A DNA stretch of 64,000 nt from Sphingomonas jaspsi DSM 18422 (GTDB lineage: Bacteria > Pseudomonadota > Alphaproteobacteria > Sphingomonadales > Sphingomonadaceae). This document shows, piece by piece, positions 52,543-59,558 of this stretch. The notes beneath the pieces are model-generated. The model was not told where the DNA came from and searched no databases. It saw only the letters and a program-made list of their open reading frames with translations. A program made the position numbers and the translations under genes. Positions within the stretch are counted from its first letter, which is position 1. The number at the start of each line of letters is the position of its first letter. The stretch is taken from contig NZ_KK073876.1 in the NCBI RefSeq assembly GCF_000585415.1, forward strand, positions 2,291,810-2,355,809. The letters run 5' to 3'.

Positions 52543-52643
52543 AGCGGTCGGCAATCCGACCGCTAGCAGCGCGAAGAGACAGCGAGGGCCGGCCGACCGG
52601 CGCGAAGCGACCGGATCGACGTCACGGGATTAACTCCCGTGAC
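52543..52643. repeat. REP-like hairpin cluster after the M13 peptidase gene
   Basis: Two perfect 9-base stems. AGCGGTCGG/CCGACCGCT (52543-52564, loop CAAT) is followed by GTCACGGGA/TCCCGTGAC (52621-52643, loop TTAAC). Between them lie GC-rich palindromic stretches and copies of GCGAAG (also one at 52539). No T-run follows, so this is more a REP-type element or complex terminator than a classical one. Confidence 0.5.
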
Positions 52644-52646
52644 GGC

Positions 52647-53051
52647 CTAGCGCGCATTGCGGCGTCCTCTCCTTATAATTAGCCACGCCAGCCCCGCCGC
52701 CGCGACAACATCGTAAGCCCCACAAAAGGCTGGCCACCAATCGGGCGCGCCAGGCGCGGCCAGATAGTCGTGCCTCAGCAGGTCGAACAGGCCATGCAGC
52801 GCCAACCCCGCCGCGACAAACCATAAGCTCCTTCGAAATCCGATTGCCGCCAGTGCGGCAAACAGGGCGAAGAAAGCGATCTCCAACTTGAGCCCATTCC
52901 CCCCGCCCATTACCGCGAACAGGACGTACATCGACCCCACGACCGTCAGTACCGCGGCGTAGAAGGAACGATCCCGGTCGTAGCCGACCACATGCGCGAA
53001 CACGCCGACCGCGACCGCCAGCGTAGCGCCAACCACCAGAGCCAGGTTCAT
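52647..53051 (-). CDS. Four-helix membrane protein, unknown function
   Basis: 134 residues with four or five helices (LALVVGATLAVAVGVFAHVVG, SFYAAVLTVVGSMYVLFAV, LEIAFFALFAALAAIG, LWFVAAGLALHGLFDLL), then PDWWPAFCGAYDVVAAAGLAWLII (in part). The LHGLFDLLRHDYL motif is reminiscent of DUF6010-like membrane proteins. It lies 5 bases downstream of the di-heme cytochrome gene, so it may be co-transcribed. The stop is followed by the hairpin cluster. Confidence 0.65.
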   Translation of the reverse strand: MNLALVVGATLAVAVGVFAHVVGYDRDRSFYAAVLTVVGSMYVLFAVMGGGNGLKLEIAFFALFAALAAIGFRRSLWFVAAGLALHGLFDLLRHDYLAAPGAPDWWPAFCGAYDVVAAAGLAWLIIRRGRRNAR

Positions 53052-53056
53052 CGCCC

Positions 53057-53917
53057 CTAATCCCGCTCCCCGCCATGTGCGGGCTGGTCTTCCTCGGCCT
53101 CCAGCCGATCCCGCAGGAAGCCGATCAGCTCCTCCCGCTCATGCTGGGTCATCTTGGCAGTGCGATGCCTCGCAGTACCGCTCATGAGGCCGAGGTCTTT
53201 CTTCGTCTTTCCCTCGCCGGTCATGAACATGTGCATCAGCTCGGCGTCATTATAGGTTCCGACGATGTCGAGGTTGGGGCTGAAATCCTCATAGCCCTGA
53301 AGCTCGCTATTATGGCACTCCGCGCAGACCGTTTGCGCGATATAATGGCCGAGCGGATGCCGGCCGCCGTAATCGGACAGCGCGTTGGCGCGGAACCGCG
53401 CGGCCATCTGCTTGGCGGGGAGGAAATCCGCATCGGGTGATTTGTCAGCCCACACGGTGCCCAGTCGAACCGGCGGCGTTTCTTTCCCGGCTTTGGGCAC
53501 GGTGCGCAGGTAAGCGGTCAGCGCGGCGACGTCGGCATCGCTGAGATACTGGAAGGTCTCAATCGGCATGAACACCAGCGCGCGGCCGTCATGCACCTCG
53601 CCCTTGCGCAGGAAGTCGGCGAACTGGGCGTCGTTGTAATTGGCCATGCGCAGGGTGATGTTGGACGCCCACATATCGCCTTGGGCCTTGTCGCCGGGCG
53701 TCACGTTTTCGCCCTGAAGATTTTCGCCGTGGCAGCCCTTGCAGCCGAGGATGAAGCTCAGCCGCTCGCCATGTGCCACCTTGGCCGTGGGATCGGTCGT
53801 GGTCGCACCGTCATAGGTGATCGCGGCGGGCTTGGTCGGCTCTTCCGCCGCCACTTCCTTACGCTGATGACAGGCCGTCAGGCTGGTCATCGCCAGCAGC
53901 AAACCCAAAACGCGCAT
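53057..53917 (-). CDS. Di-haem cytochrome c lipoprotein
   Basis: 286 residues. A lipoprotein signal (LGLLLAMTSLTAC) is followed by two cytochrome c domains with CKGCHGENLQG and CAECHNSELQG, each binding one haem. Axial methionines could be in the VFMPIETFQYLSD and LMSGTARHRTAKM stretches. It is likely an electron carrier in the periplasm. It leads the small membrane gene downstream. The donor and acceptor are unknown. Confidence 0.87.
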   Translation of the reverse strand: MRVLGLLLAMTSLTACHQRKEVAAEEPTKPAAITYDGATTTDPTAKVAHGERLSFILGCKGCHGENLQGENVTPGDKAQGDMWASNITLRMANYNDAQFADFLRKGEVHDGRALVFMPIETFQYLSDADVAALTAYLRTVPKAGKETPPVRLGTVWADKSPDADFLPAKQMAARFRANALSDYGGRHPLGHYIAQTVCAECHNSELQGYEDFSPNLDIVGTYNDAELMHMFMTGEGKTKKDLGLMSGTARHRTAKMTQHEREELIGFLRDRLEAEEDQPAHGGERD

Positions 53918-53970: not shown

Positions 53971-55125
53971 CTAAGCGCCGATAATCTCGCGCCCGATCAG
54001 CATGCGGCGGATTTCGTTCGTTCCTGCGCCGATGTCGAGCAGCTTGGCGTCGCGCATGTAGCGTTCGACCGGCCAGTCCTTGGTGTAGCCTGCGCCGCCC
54101 AGCGCCTGGACGGCTTCGCCCGCGACCTTGAACGCGCTTTCGGATGCCAGCAGGATCGCACCCGCCGCGTCGAAGCGGGTGGTCTTGCCCGCGTCGCAGG
54201 CCTTGGCGACCTGGTAGACGTAGGCGCGGGCGCTGTTCAGCGCGACATACATGTCGGCGATCTTGGCCTGCATCAGCTGGAAGCTGCCGATGGGCTTGCC
54301 GAATTGCTTGCGCTCGCGGACATAAGGGATGACGACGTCGAGGCAGGCCTGCATGATGCCGAGCTGGATGCCGGCAAGCACGGTGCGCTCATAATCCAGC
54401 CCGCTCATCAGCACCGCGACCCCGCCATTTTCCGGGCCCATGATCTGTTCGGCGGGGACAAAGCAGTCGTTGAACACCAGCTCGGCGGTCGGCGATCCGC
54501 GCATCCCGCACTTGTCGATCTTCTGCCCGATCGAAAAGCCTTCCATGCCCTTTTCGATGAGGAAGGTGGTGATGCCGCGGCTGCCTTCGCCGGTCTTGGC
54601 GTAGACCACCAGCGTGTCGGCGTGGGTGGCGTTGGTGATCCAGAATTTGGTGCCGTTGAGGACGTAACCGTTGCCCGATTTCTCGGCCTTCAGCTTCATC
54701 GACACGACGTCGCTGCCCGCGCTCGCCTCGCTCATCGCCAGCGATCCGACATGTTCGCCGCTGATCAGCTTGGGGAGGTATTTCGCCTTCTGCTCCGGAT
54801 TGGCCCAACGCCGGATCTGGTTGACGCACAGGTTCGAATGCGCGCCGTAGCTGAGGCCGACCGAAGCCGAGGCCCGCGCTACCTCTTCCTGCGCCACGAC
54901 ATGTTCGAGATAGCCGAGGCCGAGGCCGCCCCATTCTTCCTCGACGGTAATGCCGTGGAGGCCAAGCTCGCCCATCTGCGGCCACAACTCGACCGGGAAG
55001 CGGTCCTTCTCGTCGATCTCGGCAGCAAGCGGCAGGATCTTGTCGGTGGCGAAGCGCTGGGTCGTGTCGCGGATGGCATCGGCCATCTCGCCCAGGTTGA
55101 AATCCATGCCCGGCATATCGCTCAT
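53971..55125 (-). CDS. ivd: Isovaleryl-CoA dehydrogenase
   Basis: A 384-residue FAD acyl-CoA dehydrogenase of leucine breakdown. It has [31 protein letters not shown] and the loop [19 protein letters not shown]. The glutamate in that loop is the catalytic base of isovaleryl-CoA dehydrogenases, unlike most other family members. The C-terminal flavin-binding region has [22 protein letters not shown] (in part). It lies 56 bases after the small membrane gene. Its product feeds mccAB. Confidence 0.93.
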
Positions 55126-55181: not shown

Positions 55182-55430
55182 TTAGGGATTGGGTGGATCA
55201 TTCGGCGGCGAAGCCCCGCTGGAGCGGATCAGCGACCGTCCGAGAAGCATCAGTCCGATGCCGCCCGCCAAGGGAATACCACCGAAAAGCGCGACGATCG
55301 GAAAAACGCTGAAATCGATCTGAGACACGTTGCTCACCCCGGCGAAAAAGACGGCGGCCGAGCAAAGTCCGCTTGCGCCGGCGATCAACAGTCCAATTGC
55401 GAACAGGATGCCGCCCAGCAATTTGCTCAT
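55182..55430 (-). CDS. Small two-helix membrane protein (copy A)
   Basis: 82 residues. The opening [27 protein letters not shown] is nearly the same as in the next gene, then a short loop, a second helix ([20 protein letters not shown]) and a hydrophilic Pro-rich tail. It is a paralogue of the neighbour, 17 bases away. No known family. It may be the last gene of the cassette that includes the radical SAM enzyme. Confidence 0.7.
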
Positions 55431-55447
55431 GCGTCATTCCCTCCCGA

Positions 55448-55669
55448 TCAGATGCGCCCGCCCGGACCGCGGGCGACGCGGCGACCCAATATCACGAGCC
55501 CAACCCCAATTAGCAAAGAAGGCACGAAGGCGCTGAGGATGTCGACGAGGCCCCTGATGGTGAAATTGGTAGCCGTCAGGTCCAGCAGGAACAACGCCGA
55601 ACAAATCCCGCTAAGACCGGCAATCAGCACACCCGCCGCGACAAGGATGCCACCGAGGAGTTTCCTCAT
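55448..55669 (-). CDS. Small two-helix membrane protein (copy B)
   Basis: 73 residues, opening RKLLGGILVAAGVLIAGLSGICSALFLL, a loop, then a helix (FVPSLLIGVGLVILGRRVARG). It shares the KLLGGIL-x4-G-x-LIAG-x-SG-x-CSA pattern with copy A. The start overlaps the radical SAM stop (ATGA), which ties it to that gene. The cysteine in SGxCSA is kept in both copies. Confidence 0.75.
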   Translation of the reverse strand: MRKLLGGILVAAGVLIAGLSGICSALFLLDLTATNFTIRGLVDILSAFVPSLLIGVGLVILGRRVARGPGGRI

Positions 55670-57135
55670 TCGGCTACCCCTGCCCGTGCTCTGCCCCGCC
55701 GCAGCACGTCCGCCCCCTCCGCGCCATCGCGGTAGAAGGTGTTGTAGGTGTCGAACGGAATGATTTGCCCCTCACCCGTGACGAAATGGACGCAGCTGCG
55801 CTTCACCGTGCCGAGGTCGAAATTGTAACGGTCGAGGAATTGCAGGATGACGACGCGGAAGCTGTCGGCATAGCTCAATTGCTCCGGCACCATCGCCTGC
55901 GGCAGGCAGCAGAGCAGGCCCGCCAGCTTCTCCTCGGTATTGGCCTGCGCGGTGGCGAGCGACAGCAGGTCCAGAATGCGTTCGCGCAGGGCGGGATAGG
56001 CTTCGTAGCTGATCGTGTTCGGCCCGTTCAGCATCAGTTCGCGCGGCAGCAGGCTGGTGATCGGCGTCACCTTGTCACCGTCGCGCAGGCCATAGGCGAT
56101 ACAGATCTGGTCGGGGTTGCACGGCAGCGGGATGAGGTCGTCGAGGGCGAAGGCTTTCGACTTCGCCACCTCGCGGCGGATTTGCGCCAAGACGATGCGG
56201 TTGGCCTTGGCGTCGAAGCCTTCGTTTCGCCCCGCATCCTGCACCGGCTGGAAGGTGACGCCGCGCACGCATTTCCAGGTCAGGGCATGGTCGACGATGG
56301 CCGCGACTTCCTTATCGTTGACCCCGCGCTTCACCACCGCGACCAGCGTGGTCGACAGGCCGACCCGTTCCAACGCTTCGAGCGCGGCCTGGCGGATGCG
56401 CGAGAGCTTGGCGCCGCGCAGGTTGACCAGCGCGTCGTCGTTGAGGCTGTCGAACTGGAGATAAACTTCGAGGCGGGGCGCATAGGTCGCCAGCCGCTCG
56501 ACGAACTCGGGTTCCTGCGCGATGCGGACGCCGTTGGTGTTGATCATGACATGGCGGATCGGCCGCCGCTTCACCGCGTCGAGGATGTCGAAGAATTGCG
56601 GGTGGATGGTCGGCTCGCCGCCCGACAATTGCAGCAGGTCGGGCTCGCCCTCGCTCGCGACCAGCGCGTCGAGCATCGCCTCGATCTCGGCCAGCGGGCG
56701 GTGGCTGCCATGGAGGTCCTGCGCGGATGCGAAACAGACCGGGCAGGCCAGGTTACAGGCCTGGTTGACCTCGATCAGCGCGAGGCAGCTATGCTGTTCA
56801 TGGTCGGGGCACAGGCCGCAATCGAACGGGCAGCCGGCCTCGGTCCGGGTCTGGGCGGTGAGCGGTCGGTCGCCCGGCTTCAGCCAATCCTGCTGCGAAC
56901 GCCAATAGGCGACGTCGTCGCTGATCAGCGTTTTCTGCACGCCATGGTCGCGGCAGCGCTTGAGGTAGAACACGCCGCCCGCCTCGACGATGACCTTGGC
57001 GGGGACCAGTTCGAGGCAGGTCTCGCACAAGCTCGTCGTCTGGTGATGGAAGATGTAGGGCGCTGCCTTGCGTTCCGCCGCTATGTCAGGCGGGTTGTCG
57101 ATCGCGTCCGCTTCGGTTCCACCAACATAGTCCAT
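55666..57135 (-). CDS. Radical SAM enzyme, tetraether synthase (Tes)/MJ0619-like
   Basis: 489 residues. The SAM cluster cysteines are 127, 131 and 134 in CNLACPVC, followed by LQLSGGEPT. The N-terminal part carries more cysteines: LCETC (37, 40), CRDHG (61) and CPFDCGLC (102, 106, 109), a layout of the archaeal Tes/MJ0619 group in which extra clusters bind there. A PLPCNPDQICIAYG segment and a C-terminal IPFDTYNTFYRD also fit. Those enzymes act on lipids or pterins; the substrate here is unknown. The start is the ATG at 57135, which overlaps the Lgt-like gene by 50 bases. Confidence 0.85.
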   Translation of the reverse strand: MDYVGGTEADAIDNPPDIAAERKAAPYIFHHQTTSLCETCLELVPAKVIVEAGGVFYLKRCRDHGVQKTLISDDVAYWRSQQDWLKPGDRPLTAQTRTEAGCPFDCGLCPDHEQHSCLALIEVNQACNLACPVCFASAQDLHGSHRPLAEIEAMLDALVASEGEPDLLQLSGGEPTIHPQFFDILDAVKRRPIRHVMINTNGVRIAQEPEFVERLATYAPRLEVYLQFDSLNDDALVNLRGAKLSRIRQAALEALERVGLSTTLVAVVKRGVNDKEVAAIVDHALTWKCVRGVTFQPVQDAGRNEGFDAKANRIVLAQIRREVAKSKAFALDDLIPLPCNPDQICIAYGLRDGDKVTPITSLLPRELMLNGPNTISYEAYPALRERILDLLSLATAQANTEEKLAGLLCCLPQAMVPEQLSYADSFRVVILQFLDRYNFDLGTVKRSCVHFVTGEGQIIPFDTYNTFYRDGAEGADVLRRGRARAGVAE

Positions 57136-57808
57136 AGACAACCAGCCCCATCATCAACAGGTGGAAGAGATTAAGCGGCCCCACCAACGGCGGATAGGGC
57201 TTCAGAAACTCCCACGCGAACCGCTGGGCAGCATAGAAGATAATCATCGCGTGGAAAGCGTGATGGGTGGCCCAGTTCATGCCCGCCAAACGCGCACGGA
57301 CATAGGTGATCGCGAAGACGGCCATCGACACGCCTTCGTATAGCTGGACCGGATGGCGACCGATTCCGTCGCCAAGGTCGACCGCCCACGGCAGGCCGGT
57401 CGGCACGCCATAGGTCGCATCGGCGAGCCCGGTGAAAAAGCAGCCCAGCCGACCCACCGCGATGCCCACCGCGATCGGCAGGACGAAGGCACCGCCGGTC
57501 GATACCGTGATGCCGCGCCGCCATTTCCACAGCTCGACCCCGGCAATCCCGCCCGCAAGCGCGCCGGCAACGCTGTGCGACGGCGCGGCGACCAGCATCC
57601 GCAGCGAATTGGCGCTGCCCAGCAGCCACGCCCCCGCAAGCGCCCCGACGGCAAGACTGATGAAGTAACTGGTGTCGGTAATCCGGGACAAGCGTTCGGC
57701 CTCGGCGGGCCAGCGCCGATGCTGCAAGCGCGCGGCCAGCGCCGCTGCCAGCCAAGCGCAAAGGTCGCCGACATAATGGGCCCACAGGGCCGTCGGGACA
57801 TGGATCAT
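57086..57808 (-). CDS. Prolipoprotein diacylglyceryl transferase (Lgt)-like membrane protein
   Basis: 240 residues with about seven helices. The Lgt motifs are partly kept: a histidine in SHSVAGALAGG, GRLGCFFTGLADATYG in place of GR-x-GNF-x-NGE, then HPVQLYEG. The Asn and Glu of the usual motif are Cys and Leu, so it is probably not a normal Lgt. It starts at ATG 57808, 4 bases after the cytochrome gene, and its end overlaps the radical SAM gene. A true lgt should exist elsewhere. Confidence 0.82.
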   Translation of the reverse strand: MIHVPTALWAHYVGDLCAWLAAALAARLQHRRWPAEAERLSRITDTSYFISLAVGALAGAWLLGSANSLRMLVAAPSHSVAGALAGGIAGVELWKWRRGITVSTGGAFVLPIAVGIAVGRLGCFFTGLADATYGVPTGLPWAVDLGDGIGRHPVQLYEGVSMAVFAITYVRARLAGMNWATHHAFHAMIIFYAAQRFAWEFLKPYPPLVGPLNLFHLLMMGLVVYGLCWWNRSGRDRQPA

Positions 57809-57812
57809 GAGG

Positions 57813-58268
57813 TCAGGGCTTGGGGGGAGCGGCCGTCGCTGCCGGGTCGGCAGGCGGCGGCACAATCAGCGGATGCGCCGCGCCCCGATGGCAGGTGTAG
57901 CAGGTTACCGCCGGATTGTTCATGTCGACCTCGAACTTCTGGTTGAGGTCGTGGGTCACCCGCATCATCCAGCGCGCCATTTCCTTTTCACGCTTGGCGT
58001 CAGATGCGAAGTTCAGGCCCGCTCCGTTCGACGCCGGCGCATGGCAATAAGCGCAATTCACCCCCAGGGCGGACGACATGTTGCGCATGATGCCGATCAG
58101 TTGTTCGCGCGGCATGTCGGGCGGCAGCGCCTGAAGGTTCCTTGCTTTCCACGAAGACGGCGGCGGGGGTGGCGGCACGTCCGCGTTGGCCGCGCCATGA
58201 CCGACGGCGATCGCCAACGTCGCGGCCGCGGCGGCGAATAGCAGCTTGCTCGACAGGGCCCTGTTCAT
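57813..58268 (-). CDS. Secreted c-type cytochrome (reaction-centre cytochrome-like)
   Basis: 151 residues. A signal peptide (LLFAAAAATLAIAVGHGAANA) is followed by a Pro-rich linker, then NMSSALGVNCAYCHAPA and VTCYTCHRGAAHP, two CxxCH haem sites. The helix between them has FASDAKREKEMARWMMRVTHDLN (in part). This matches the small cytochromes of the photosynthetic reaction-centre cytochrome family, found also in non-phototrophs. It starts the cassette with the Lgt-like and radical SAM genes. GGAGG precedes the ATG at 58268. Confidence 0.85.
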   Translation of the reverse strand: MNRALSSKLLFAAAAATLAIAVGHGAANADVPPPPPPSSWKARNLQALPPDMPREQLIGIMRNMSSALGVNCAYCHAPASNGAGLNFASDAKREKEMARWMMRVTHDLNQKFEVDMNNPAVTCYTCHRGAAHPLIVPPPADPAATAAPPKP

Positions 58269-58370: not shown

Positions 58371-59558
58371 ATGTCCGCCGATCCGATCGTCATCCTGTCC
58401 TACGCCCGCACGCCGATGGGCAGCTTCCAGGGAAGCCTGTCCGGCGCCACCGCGCCGCAGCTGGGCGCGACGGCGGTCAAGGCGGCGGTCGAACGCGCCG
58501 GCATCGACGGCGATCTGGTCGAGAAAATCTACATGGGCTGCGTCCTGCCCGCCGGCCTCGGCCAGGCCCCGGCGCGTCAGGCGGCGCTGTTCGCCGGCCT
58601 CCCCCGTTCGGTCGAAGCGACCACGGTCAACAAGATGTGCGGATCGGGCATGCAGGCGGCGATCATGGCCGCCGACACGCTGGCGGCGGGCAGCGCCGAC
58701 GTCGTCATCGCGGGCGGCATGGAATCGATGACCAACGCCCCATACCTCAGCCACAAGCATCGCGGCGGCGCACGCATCGGCCATGATGTGCTGAAGGACC
58801 ATATGTTCCTCGACGGGCTGGAAGACGCCTATGAGCCGGGCCGGCTGATGGGCAGCTTCGCCGAGGAAGCGAGCACCGAATATCAGTTCACCCGCGAAGC
58901 GCAGGACGGTTACGCGATCGAAAGCCTTTCGCGAGCCAACGCCGCGATCCAGTCGGGCGCGTTCAAGAAGGAAATCGCGCCCGTCACCATTTCGGGCCGC
59001 AAGGGCGACGAGATCGTCGACACCGACGAACAGCCGGGCAAGGCCAATCCGGGCAAGATCCCGACGCTGAAGCCCGCCTTCGCCAAGGACGGCACCATTA
59101 CCGCCGCGAACGCCTCGTCGATTTCGGATGGCGCCGCCGCGCTGGTGCTGACCCGCCAAAGCGTCGCCGACAGGCTGGGCGTGAAGCCGGTGGCGCGGAT
59201 CGTGTCGCATGCCGCCCACGCCCACGAACCTGCCAAGTTCACTACCGCTCCCGTTCCCGCGCTGCAGAAGGCGATGGCCAAGGCTGGCTGGAGCAAGGAC
59301 GACATCGACCTGTTCGAAGTCAACGAAGCCTTCGCCTGCGTCGCGATGATCGCGATGAAGGACCTCGGCATCGATCACGCCAAGATCAACGTCAACGGCG
59401 GCGCGACCGCACTCGGCCACCCGATCGGCGCAAGCGGCGCACGCATCCTCGCGACCCTGCTCGGCGCGCTCGAGACCCGCGGCCTGAAGCGCGGCATCGC
59501 CAGCCTGTGCATCGGCGGCGGCGAAGCCACCGCGATGGCAGTCGAGCTGGTCGACTGA
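58371..59558 (+). CDS. Acetyl-CoA C-acetyltransferase (thiolase)
   Basis: A 395-residue thiolase with active-site Cys90 in [10 protein letters not shown], the histidine in [15 protein letters not shown] and the second cysteine in CIGGGEATA. It cleaves or forms acetoacetyl-CoA. As leucine breakdown ends in acetoacetate and acetyl-CoA, it fits ivd and mcc, but may serve polyhydroxyalkanoate or beta-oxidation instead. It is divergent from the cytochrome gene. Confidence 0.93.

Follow-up and report, generated by a model that had tools for sequence, protein, structure and literature searches.

We found that the radical SAM gene at this Sphingomonas jaspsi locus belongs to a self-contained, portable and horizontally moving module of three gene families, which occurs in Pseudomonadota, Bacteroidota and Actinomycetota. 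The partners are LgtL, a divergent member of the Lgt family; rSAM, a radical SAM enzyme resembling Tes and TrsS; and a two-helix membrane microprotein with a constant cysteine. Gene linkage, family membership, predicted folds, catalytic residues kept and lost, the cysteine and portability are established here. With Lgt-family, Tes-superfamily and small membrane partners conserved together, the lipid or lipoprotein modifying role proposed in the original prediction probably remains the best reading of these sequences, and the cassette points to a mode of lipid attachment or modification that may be undescribed. We put at roughly 40% the probability that the module performs a dedicated lipidation, in which LgtL would lipidate the microprotein cysteine and rSAM would alter an acyl tail by radical chemistry.

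Linkage and distribution of the module

In the window (the whole stretch of 64,000 nucleotides that was analysed) five reading frames were found on the minus strand with the spacings claimed originally. A c-type cytochrome gene (57813..58268) is separated by 4 nt from LgtL (57086..57808), LgtL overlaps rSAM (55666..57135) by 50 nt, rSAM and small1 (55448..55669) share an ATGA overlap, and small2 (55182..55430) follows small1 after 17 nt. The two small proteins are indeed paralogous (43% identity). The proposed five-gene unit had to be reduced: the conserved unit comprises three gene families, small2 is a duplication and the cytochrome is no member. Promoter and terminator scans of the locus gave no match.

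LgtL was immediately upstream of rSAM in all 80 named loci, and the two reading frames overlapped in 74 of them (start codons picked by rule). Among 246 genomes of the order, high scores for LgtL and for rSAM fell in the identical nine; carriers reached at least 650 bits for rSAM (next-best 42.4) and at least 315 bits for LgtL (next-best 55.5). The adjacency and the shared nine genomes show that the pairing is beyond chance. When 398 genomes of the phylum were searched, LgtL stood beside rSAM in each of the 12 rSAM-positive genomes (own genome counted), in one with an intervening gene. LgtL adjoins rSAM in Persicobacter too, while in M. branderi, M. avium and Nonomuraea the two are linked with small genes between them. 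The Alphaproteobacterial scope first envisaged was too narrow. Of the five families whose co-occurrence had been suggested, LgtL, rSAM and the small protein were conserved together and the cytochrome was not. Clustering of neighbours in flanks of at most 7 kb to either side of the 80 loci found no family beyond these three in more than 13 loci; an automatic count gave at least two microprotein units in eight. The cassette of genome G190 is distant (65% protein identity). Cultured strains that carry the cassette include Sphingomonas pruni NBRC 15498, S. mali NBRC 15500, Novosphingobium nitrogenifigens DSM 19370 and Reyranella soli NBRC 108950. No cassette match at E 1e-15 was detected in 50,697 phage records, and a viral-contig scan returned nothing but partial matches of 21-41% identity.

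Features of the three protein families

The window rSAM (489 aa) matched Radical_SAM (PF04055) and Zn_ribbon_HMPTM (PF23545). It scored 263.5 bits with the Tes model NF045702 and 300.1 bits, its best NCBIfam score, with the TrsS model NF045646, under the respective cut-offs of 450 and 490; none of 289 genomes of the class exceeded the 450-bit Tes cut-off. The structural comparison suggested originally gave a predicted fold that matched Tes (GDGT-MAS, MJ0619; PDB 7tol, 7tom) over most of its length, with 7tol as the best structure. The cysteines that had been assigned to the Tes/MJ0619 group were confirmed for the N-terminal part. The rubredoxin-like CxxC...CxxH site was present in 39 of 39 rows, the window among them, and the N-terminal auxiliary cluster (Cys73, Cys77, Cys80 and a His) in the window and in 22 of 25 LgtL-linked rows; the three rows without its residues seem to be those of actinomycetes. 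The C-terminal cluster site, where a labile Met439 is named for Tes (PMC9433317), is altered. Cys455 and Cys470, constant in Tes rows, would be ligands of this cluster; Met439 was found in one of the 25 LgtL-linked rows and Cys455 and Cys470 in four each, none of them the window. In place of this site, Cys339 and Cys448 are constant in LgtL-linked enzymes, and Cys409 and Cys410 are present in most. By these sequence tests, namely sub-cut-off Tes and TrsS scores and an altered C-terminal cluster site, rSAM is not Tes.

An adjacent DVU_1556-like methyltransferase, which relatives in this comparison have, may be a defining trait of TrsS; here an Lgt-family protein takes that role at every named locus. 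Methyltransferase-linked rows share Cys117, Cys339, Cys448 and mostly Cys409/410 with rSAM, and among ten plasmid records the partner was the methyltransferase in six and LgtL in four. In a tree of 39 hand-chosen rows (excluding G190 and Halalkalicoccus, whose rSAM is split in two), a 97/87 branch separated LgtL-linked rows from Tes and methyltransferase-linked rows; this split alone was used because the program flagged long branches that meet. Mss, the bacterial membrane-spanning lipid synthase, was compared by description only. It couples lipids, its models retain the architecture of Tes and, unlike for rSAM, no Lgt partner is mentioned in the description considered here (PMC13274423).

LgtL (240 aa, seven TM segments in the model) was identified by family match and residue comparison. 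It scored 57.5 bits with Pfam LGT (PF01790; cut-off 24.9), and distant forms scored 124.7, 63.9 and 84.9 bits. It fell below the NCBIfam Lgt equivalog cut-offs (29.9 vs 428, 28.2 vs 334 and 16.6 vs 118.9 bits). The model has the Lgt fold, with Lgt (phosphatidylglycerol:prolipoprotein diacylglyceryl transferase, PDB 5azb) ranked first by VIA-align at about 20% identity. Foldseek gave no match to the model at E 0.001, Lgt being absent among the best 50 matches listed, and sequence searches of solved structures gave no useful match. Between 12 and 13 of 13 LgtL rows retain Lgt residues Arg143, Tyr235, Arg239, Glu202 and Glu243, together with a basic side chain at position 246; the catalytic Arg143 and Arg239, with Glu202, Tyr235 and Glu243, are invariant in the 47 rows of LgtL alignment A2, and the window protein retains Arg120, Arg196, Glu158, Tyr192 and Glu200. 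Of 89 sequences (window counted), 47 remained in alignments A1 and A2 once redundancy had been removed at 88% identity and L010, L096 and L098 had been dropped for overlong or interrupted ORFs. Alignment to E. coli Lgt bore out the predicted loss of Asn and Glu from the Lgt signature: Asn146 is Cys in 13 of 13 rows (Cys123 in the window, invariant across the 47 rows), and Glu151 is missing in 10 of 13. An equivalent of His103 (HGGL), which is essential in E. coli Lgt (PMC4728403), was found in none of the 13. The Tyr26 position is His, which may or may not stand in for the lost His103, and the TM4-TM5 stretch is shorter than in Lgt. The host genome also encodes an ordinary Lgt of its own.

The constant microprotein cysteine, absent from the original prediction, is the key new clue. 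Cys23 closes helix 1 C-terminally in small1 (SGIC) and is kept in small2 (SGLC). A two-helix ORF with GxC or xGC began within 400 nt downstream of rSAM in 79 of 80 named loci, compared with a shuffled expectation of 29.1 of 79 (the GxC motif alone is frequent by composition, 29 of 79); at the 80th locus a longer ORF carries two of these units. This looser test was adopted after a strict helix-end cysteine test had passed 53 of 80 loci, most of the 27 misses holding a cysteine outside the interval scored; the control set of other two-helix ORFs for the strict test (n = 5, one positive) is too small for use. Cys23 was invariant in 28 of 28 aligned proteins (A3, hand-chosen rows), which are non-independent observations because these proteins are related. 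An HMM count had left 13 of 80 loci without a small protein, but the downstream ORFs proved to be diverged two-helix proteins with the cysteine. Diverged forms carry TLGC in Reyranella, GTGIC in Persicobacter and CTG(L/I)NP in Actinomycetota. In 77 of 79, charge distribution favours a topology with the N- and C-terminus inside. SGLC and SGIC break the lipobox rule [LV][ASTVI][GAS]C (PMC8689077).

Proposed lipidation and its alternatives

From these features we infer a topology, substrates, an order of steps and a product. The microprotein would insert N-in/C-in, which would place its constant cysteine where helix 1 ends on the periplasmic side, much as a prolipoprotein presents its lipobox cysteine. 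LgtL, which has the arginine pocket of Lgt, would take a glycerophospholipid and pass its diacylglyceryl moiety, or something close to it, to the microprotein cysteine; we propose that the microprotein stays uncut because it lacks a proper lipobox. The cytosolic rSAM would pull an acyl tail into the tunnel of its Tes fold, Tes being described as binding phospholipids (PMC9433317), and the 5'-deoxyadenosyl radical would perform C-H activation, giving a tail that is coupled or changed in some other way; this step could precede or follow transfer by LgtL. Tail-tail coupling is not assured, since residues at the [Fe4S4]C site of Tes lack conservation here. Counting against dedicated lipidation are the predicted location of rSAM and the cysteine on opposite membrane faces, the losses of His103 (13/13) and Glu151 (10/13), and the broken lipobox rule.

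A distinctly tentative extension is a second, orthogonal lipidation system, portable among the three phyla, in which a remodelled Lgt with an active-site cysteine would lipidate a never-cleaved microprotein and a Tes-type radical enzyme would forge a C-C (or C-S) bond in the attached tails, yielding a covalently cross-linked or membrane-spanning lipoprotein. If the proposed chemistry is true, it would be a lipidation route alongside Lgt-LspA-Lnt, and the cassette would be the first case, to our knowledge, of radical modification of a protein-bound lipid. Many bacterial Tes homologues lack an assigned function (456 in PMC8941075); one class is now set apart by its constant partners, and the question becomes a three-gene test in culturable strains.

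The module might otherwise make a free membrane lipid, which we consider possible though unlikely. Here rSAM would couple or modify acyl tails, as a bacterial counterpart of membrane-spanning lipid synthesis, LgtL would remodel or hand over phospholipid, and the microprotein would be structural only, its cysteine holding the complex or binding a metal. The extent of the Tes fold fits this, as does binding of phosphatidic acid by Tes at a nonspecific head-group site (PMC9433317); brGDGT synthesis has been proposed for bacterial Tes homologues (PMC8941075), a role described as unconfirmed (PMC11868695). However, 21 to 24 of 25 LgtL-linked rows carry other residues at the Met439, Cys455 and Cys470 positions of Tes, and a free lipid leaves the Lgt-family partner and the constant cysteine unexplained. 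It is improbable that rSAM instead matures the microprotein before insertion, making a thioether or C-C link inside it as in a RiPP, with LgtL adding lipid. Decidedly improbable is a catalytically dead LgtL that serves rSAM as membrane anchor or lipid feeder, with Cys123 and the microprotein cysteine forming a periplasmic disulphide: the invariance of both cysteines, the missing His103 and the Asn146 to Cys change agree with it, but the arginine pair and its partners, important for Lgt catalysis, are retained at about 20% identity. That rSAM is a plain bacterial Tes making GDGT-type lipids beside incidental genes is hardly credible and already weakened, since the 263.5-bit score and the 7tol match are set against a missed cut-off, the 97/87 branch, altered cluster-site residues and constant LgtL linkage.

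The insertion site and the neighbouring cytochrome

The locus is flanked on the left by an acyl-CoA dehydrogenase gene (53971..55125, minus strand) and on the right by a thiolase gene (58371..59558, plus strand). In at least 35 congeners the two flanks lie close together without the cassette, according to a genus-level DNA search that may overlook a cassette diverged as far as the one in G190. The cytochrome, with two CxxCH motifs, scored 105.9 bits with NCBIfam NF033196 (cut-off 70), and its gene is perhaps co-transcribed with the cassette at this locus. As electron donor to rSAM or part of the module it was rejected; its membership had been doubted from the start. It lies outside the module because no homologue was found at E 1e-3 in the DNA examined around the 80 named loci (upstream DNA is short at a few), and because homologues of 39-51% identity occupy cassette-free sites between the same two flanks in at least five congeners (G883, G094, G153, G879 and G216).

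Linkage of LgtL to the radical SAM enzyme

Both the gene listing and the sequence bore out the original prediction of five minus-strand genes: a c-type cytochrome (57813..58268), the Lgt-family protein LgtL (57086..57808), a Tes/TrsS-like radical SAM enzyme (rSAM, 55666..57135) and two small proteins (small1, 55448..55669; small2, 55182..55430), with successive junctions of a 4-nt gap, a 50-nt overlap, an ATGA overlap and a 17-nt gap. LgtL matched PF01790 with 57.5 bits against a cut-off of 24.9. rSAM carries PF04055 and the HMPTM zinc ribbon PF23545; its NCBIfam scores for TrsS (300.1 bits, cut-off 490) and Tes (263.5 bits, cut-off 450) both fall below threshold, so by the curated NCBIfam rules it is classed as neither. 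Searches with domain and family models placed small1 and small2 in no family above cut-off. The host genome is a single contig of 2.55 Mb, and the nearest named relatives of rSAM are sphingomonads.

Species genomes were scanned with rSAM, yielding 136 confirmed loci, the best 80 of which form the named set (mainly Sphingomonadales, Caulobacterales and Rhodospirillales/Reyranella). LgtL was found directly upstream of rSAM in all of these best 80 of 136, and the two genes overlapped in 74/80, by a median of 62 nt with rule-chosen start codons. At order level, rSAM scored at least 650 bits in 9/246 genomes (next score 42.4 bits) and LgtL at least 315 bits in the identical nine (next score 55.5 bits); ignoring the kinship of genomes, the chance of an identical set is one in C(246,9), about 8e15 arrangements. 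The co-occurrence that the original prediction proposed to check was found for LgtL and rSAM, in the named loci and the order-level genomes alike. At phylum level rSAM was present in 12/398 genomes (E 1e-25, own genome counted), all 12 with LgtL nearby on the same strand and one (G679) with a gene in between. A class-level family search gave 4/289 genomes, the three others likewise with LgtL. No further gene family was common to more than 13 of the 80 named neighbourhoods.

The intervening gene in G679 (L218 6835-7653) encodes 272 aa with a lipoprotein-like start (GGTGC). Three loci (L061, L062, L063) lie on contigs labelled Planctomycetes/Candidatus Kuenenia, with rSAM 77-79% identical to the window's; these are probably mis-binned alphaproteobacterial contigs.

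In excerpts, Zeng et al. (PMC8941075) count 456 Tes homologues in bacteria and propose for them a role in making brGDGTs, termed unconfirmed in an excerpt of PMC11868695. Mss, the bacterial membrane-spanning lipid synthase, is treated as the bacterial coupling enzyme in an excerpt of PMC13274423. No account of the cassette was found among the matches listed by a literature search on radical SAM, Tes/TrsS and diacylglyceryl transferase.

Cysteine microproteins downstream of rSAM

An automatic rule for small ORFs required 50-140 aa with two hydrophobic segments, a start no more than 400 nt downstream of rSAM, and GxC or xGC within the first 75 residues. It was passed by 79/80 named loci, with a shuffled expectation of 29.1/79; the remaining locus, L094, has a longer ORF holding two such units (GLC and GMC). 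A stricter first rule was passed by 53/80. In 68/80 loci the start codon of the microprotein and the stop codon of rSAM share the sequence ATGA. Gly13, Gly21, Cys23, Pro53, Gly57 and Gly64 were invariant in 28 aligned microproteins, and poorly aligning forms still have a cysteine at a helix end. Charge patterns put both ends inside in 77/79, and the cysteine is therefore predicted to lie at the periplasmic face. We regard the gene linkage, the portability, the predicted folds and the residue pattern as established, and infer the substrates of the cassette, a lipid adduct and a radical product.

Lengths range from about 57 to 151 aa and motifs vary: LTLGC in Reyranella, PG(I/F/L/A)C in five genomes (6-8 Mb) from a single genus, AGTC and FGTC in a 1.5 Mb alphaproteobacterium (G444), GTGIC in Persicobacter, and a G(L/V/I/Y)CTG(L/I)NP-like end at the last helix in Actinomycetota. 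In one congener, G190, the rSAM frame (L223 6516-8255) exceeds those of relatives by about 100 residues, which reflects either an error in the frame or a genuine extension. It overlaps the candidate small ORF, which is read in a different frame and was left unscored.

Insertion site

The flanking acyl-CoA dehydrogenase (53971..55125, minus strand) and thiolase (58371..59558, plus strand) are 3,245 nt apart. At least 35 congeners have the two flanks on a single contig; there the aligned portions of the flanking genes are separated by about 30-1,920 nt, not enough for the cassette. Five of these cassette-free congeners (G883, G094, G153, G879, G216) have a cytochrome homologue between the same flanks, so the simplest reading of the sequences is that the cytochrome was at the site before the cassette came. 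In G905, LgtL and rSAM sit at a different place together with a small gene, and a short gap separates the dehydrogenase from the thiolase. Among the matches listed, 2/41 genus genomes have the cassette. GC content gives no clear sign of arrival, since rSAM (0.652) and LgtL (0.656) match the window (0.649), with the two small genes below it (0.594, 0.613).

The flanks of the congeners G212 (C1:1214970-1219244) and G908 (C1:318565-322144) are separated by about 1.9 and 1.3 kb, respectively, with no match to the cytochrome; other inserts may therefore also enter this site. Following the dehydrogenase on its strand, 52647-53917 encodes a cytochrome c that has two c-type stretches, and a membrane protein whose similarity to DUF6010 falls below cut-off, with no match in the named loci among the matches listed. 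The 47 bases at 52600-52646, which end in an inverted repeat, recur at 88-98% identity in about 10 congeners among the matches listed, and also elsewhere in their own genome.

Portability and an apparent alternative partner

The cassette is portable. rSAM relatives were found on 10 plasmid records, four with LgtL: Persicobacter (47.5% identity), Mycobacterium branderi, M. avium and Nonomuraea. On the other six, from M. vanbaalenii and five haloarchaea (L214 5971-8339, L215 4893-7171, L229, L230, L231, L232), rSAM is followed by a methyltransferase in place of LgtL; the methyltransferase seems to be the alternative partner for Tes/TrsS-like rSAM. Two of the six methyltransferases were scanned and scored 136 and 132 bits against the DVU_1556 methyltransferase model (cut-off 155). 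In a tree of 39 chosen rows, in which the program flagged long branches, 25 LgtL-linked rSAMs split from 14 rows comprising the methyltransferase-linked enzymes and Tes (support 97/87). The LgtL of G444 has relatives named from Bacteriovoracaceae and Elusimicrobiaceae, as sequences alone without gene context.
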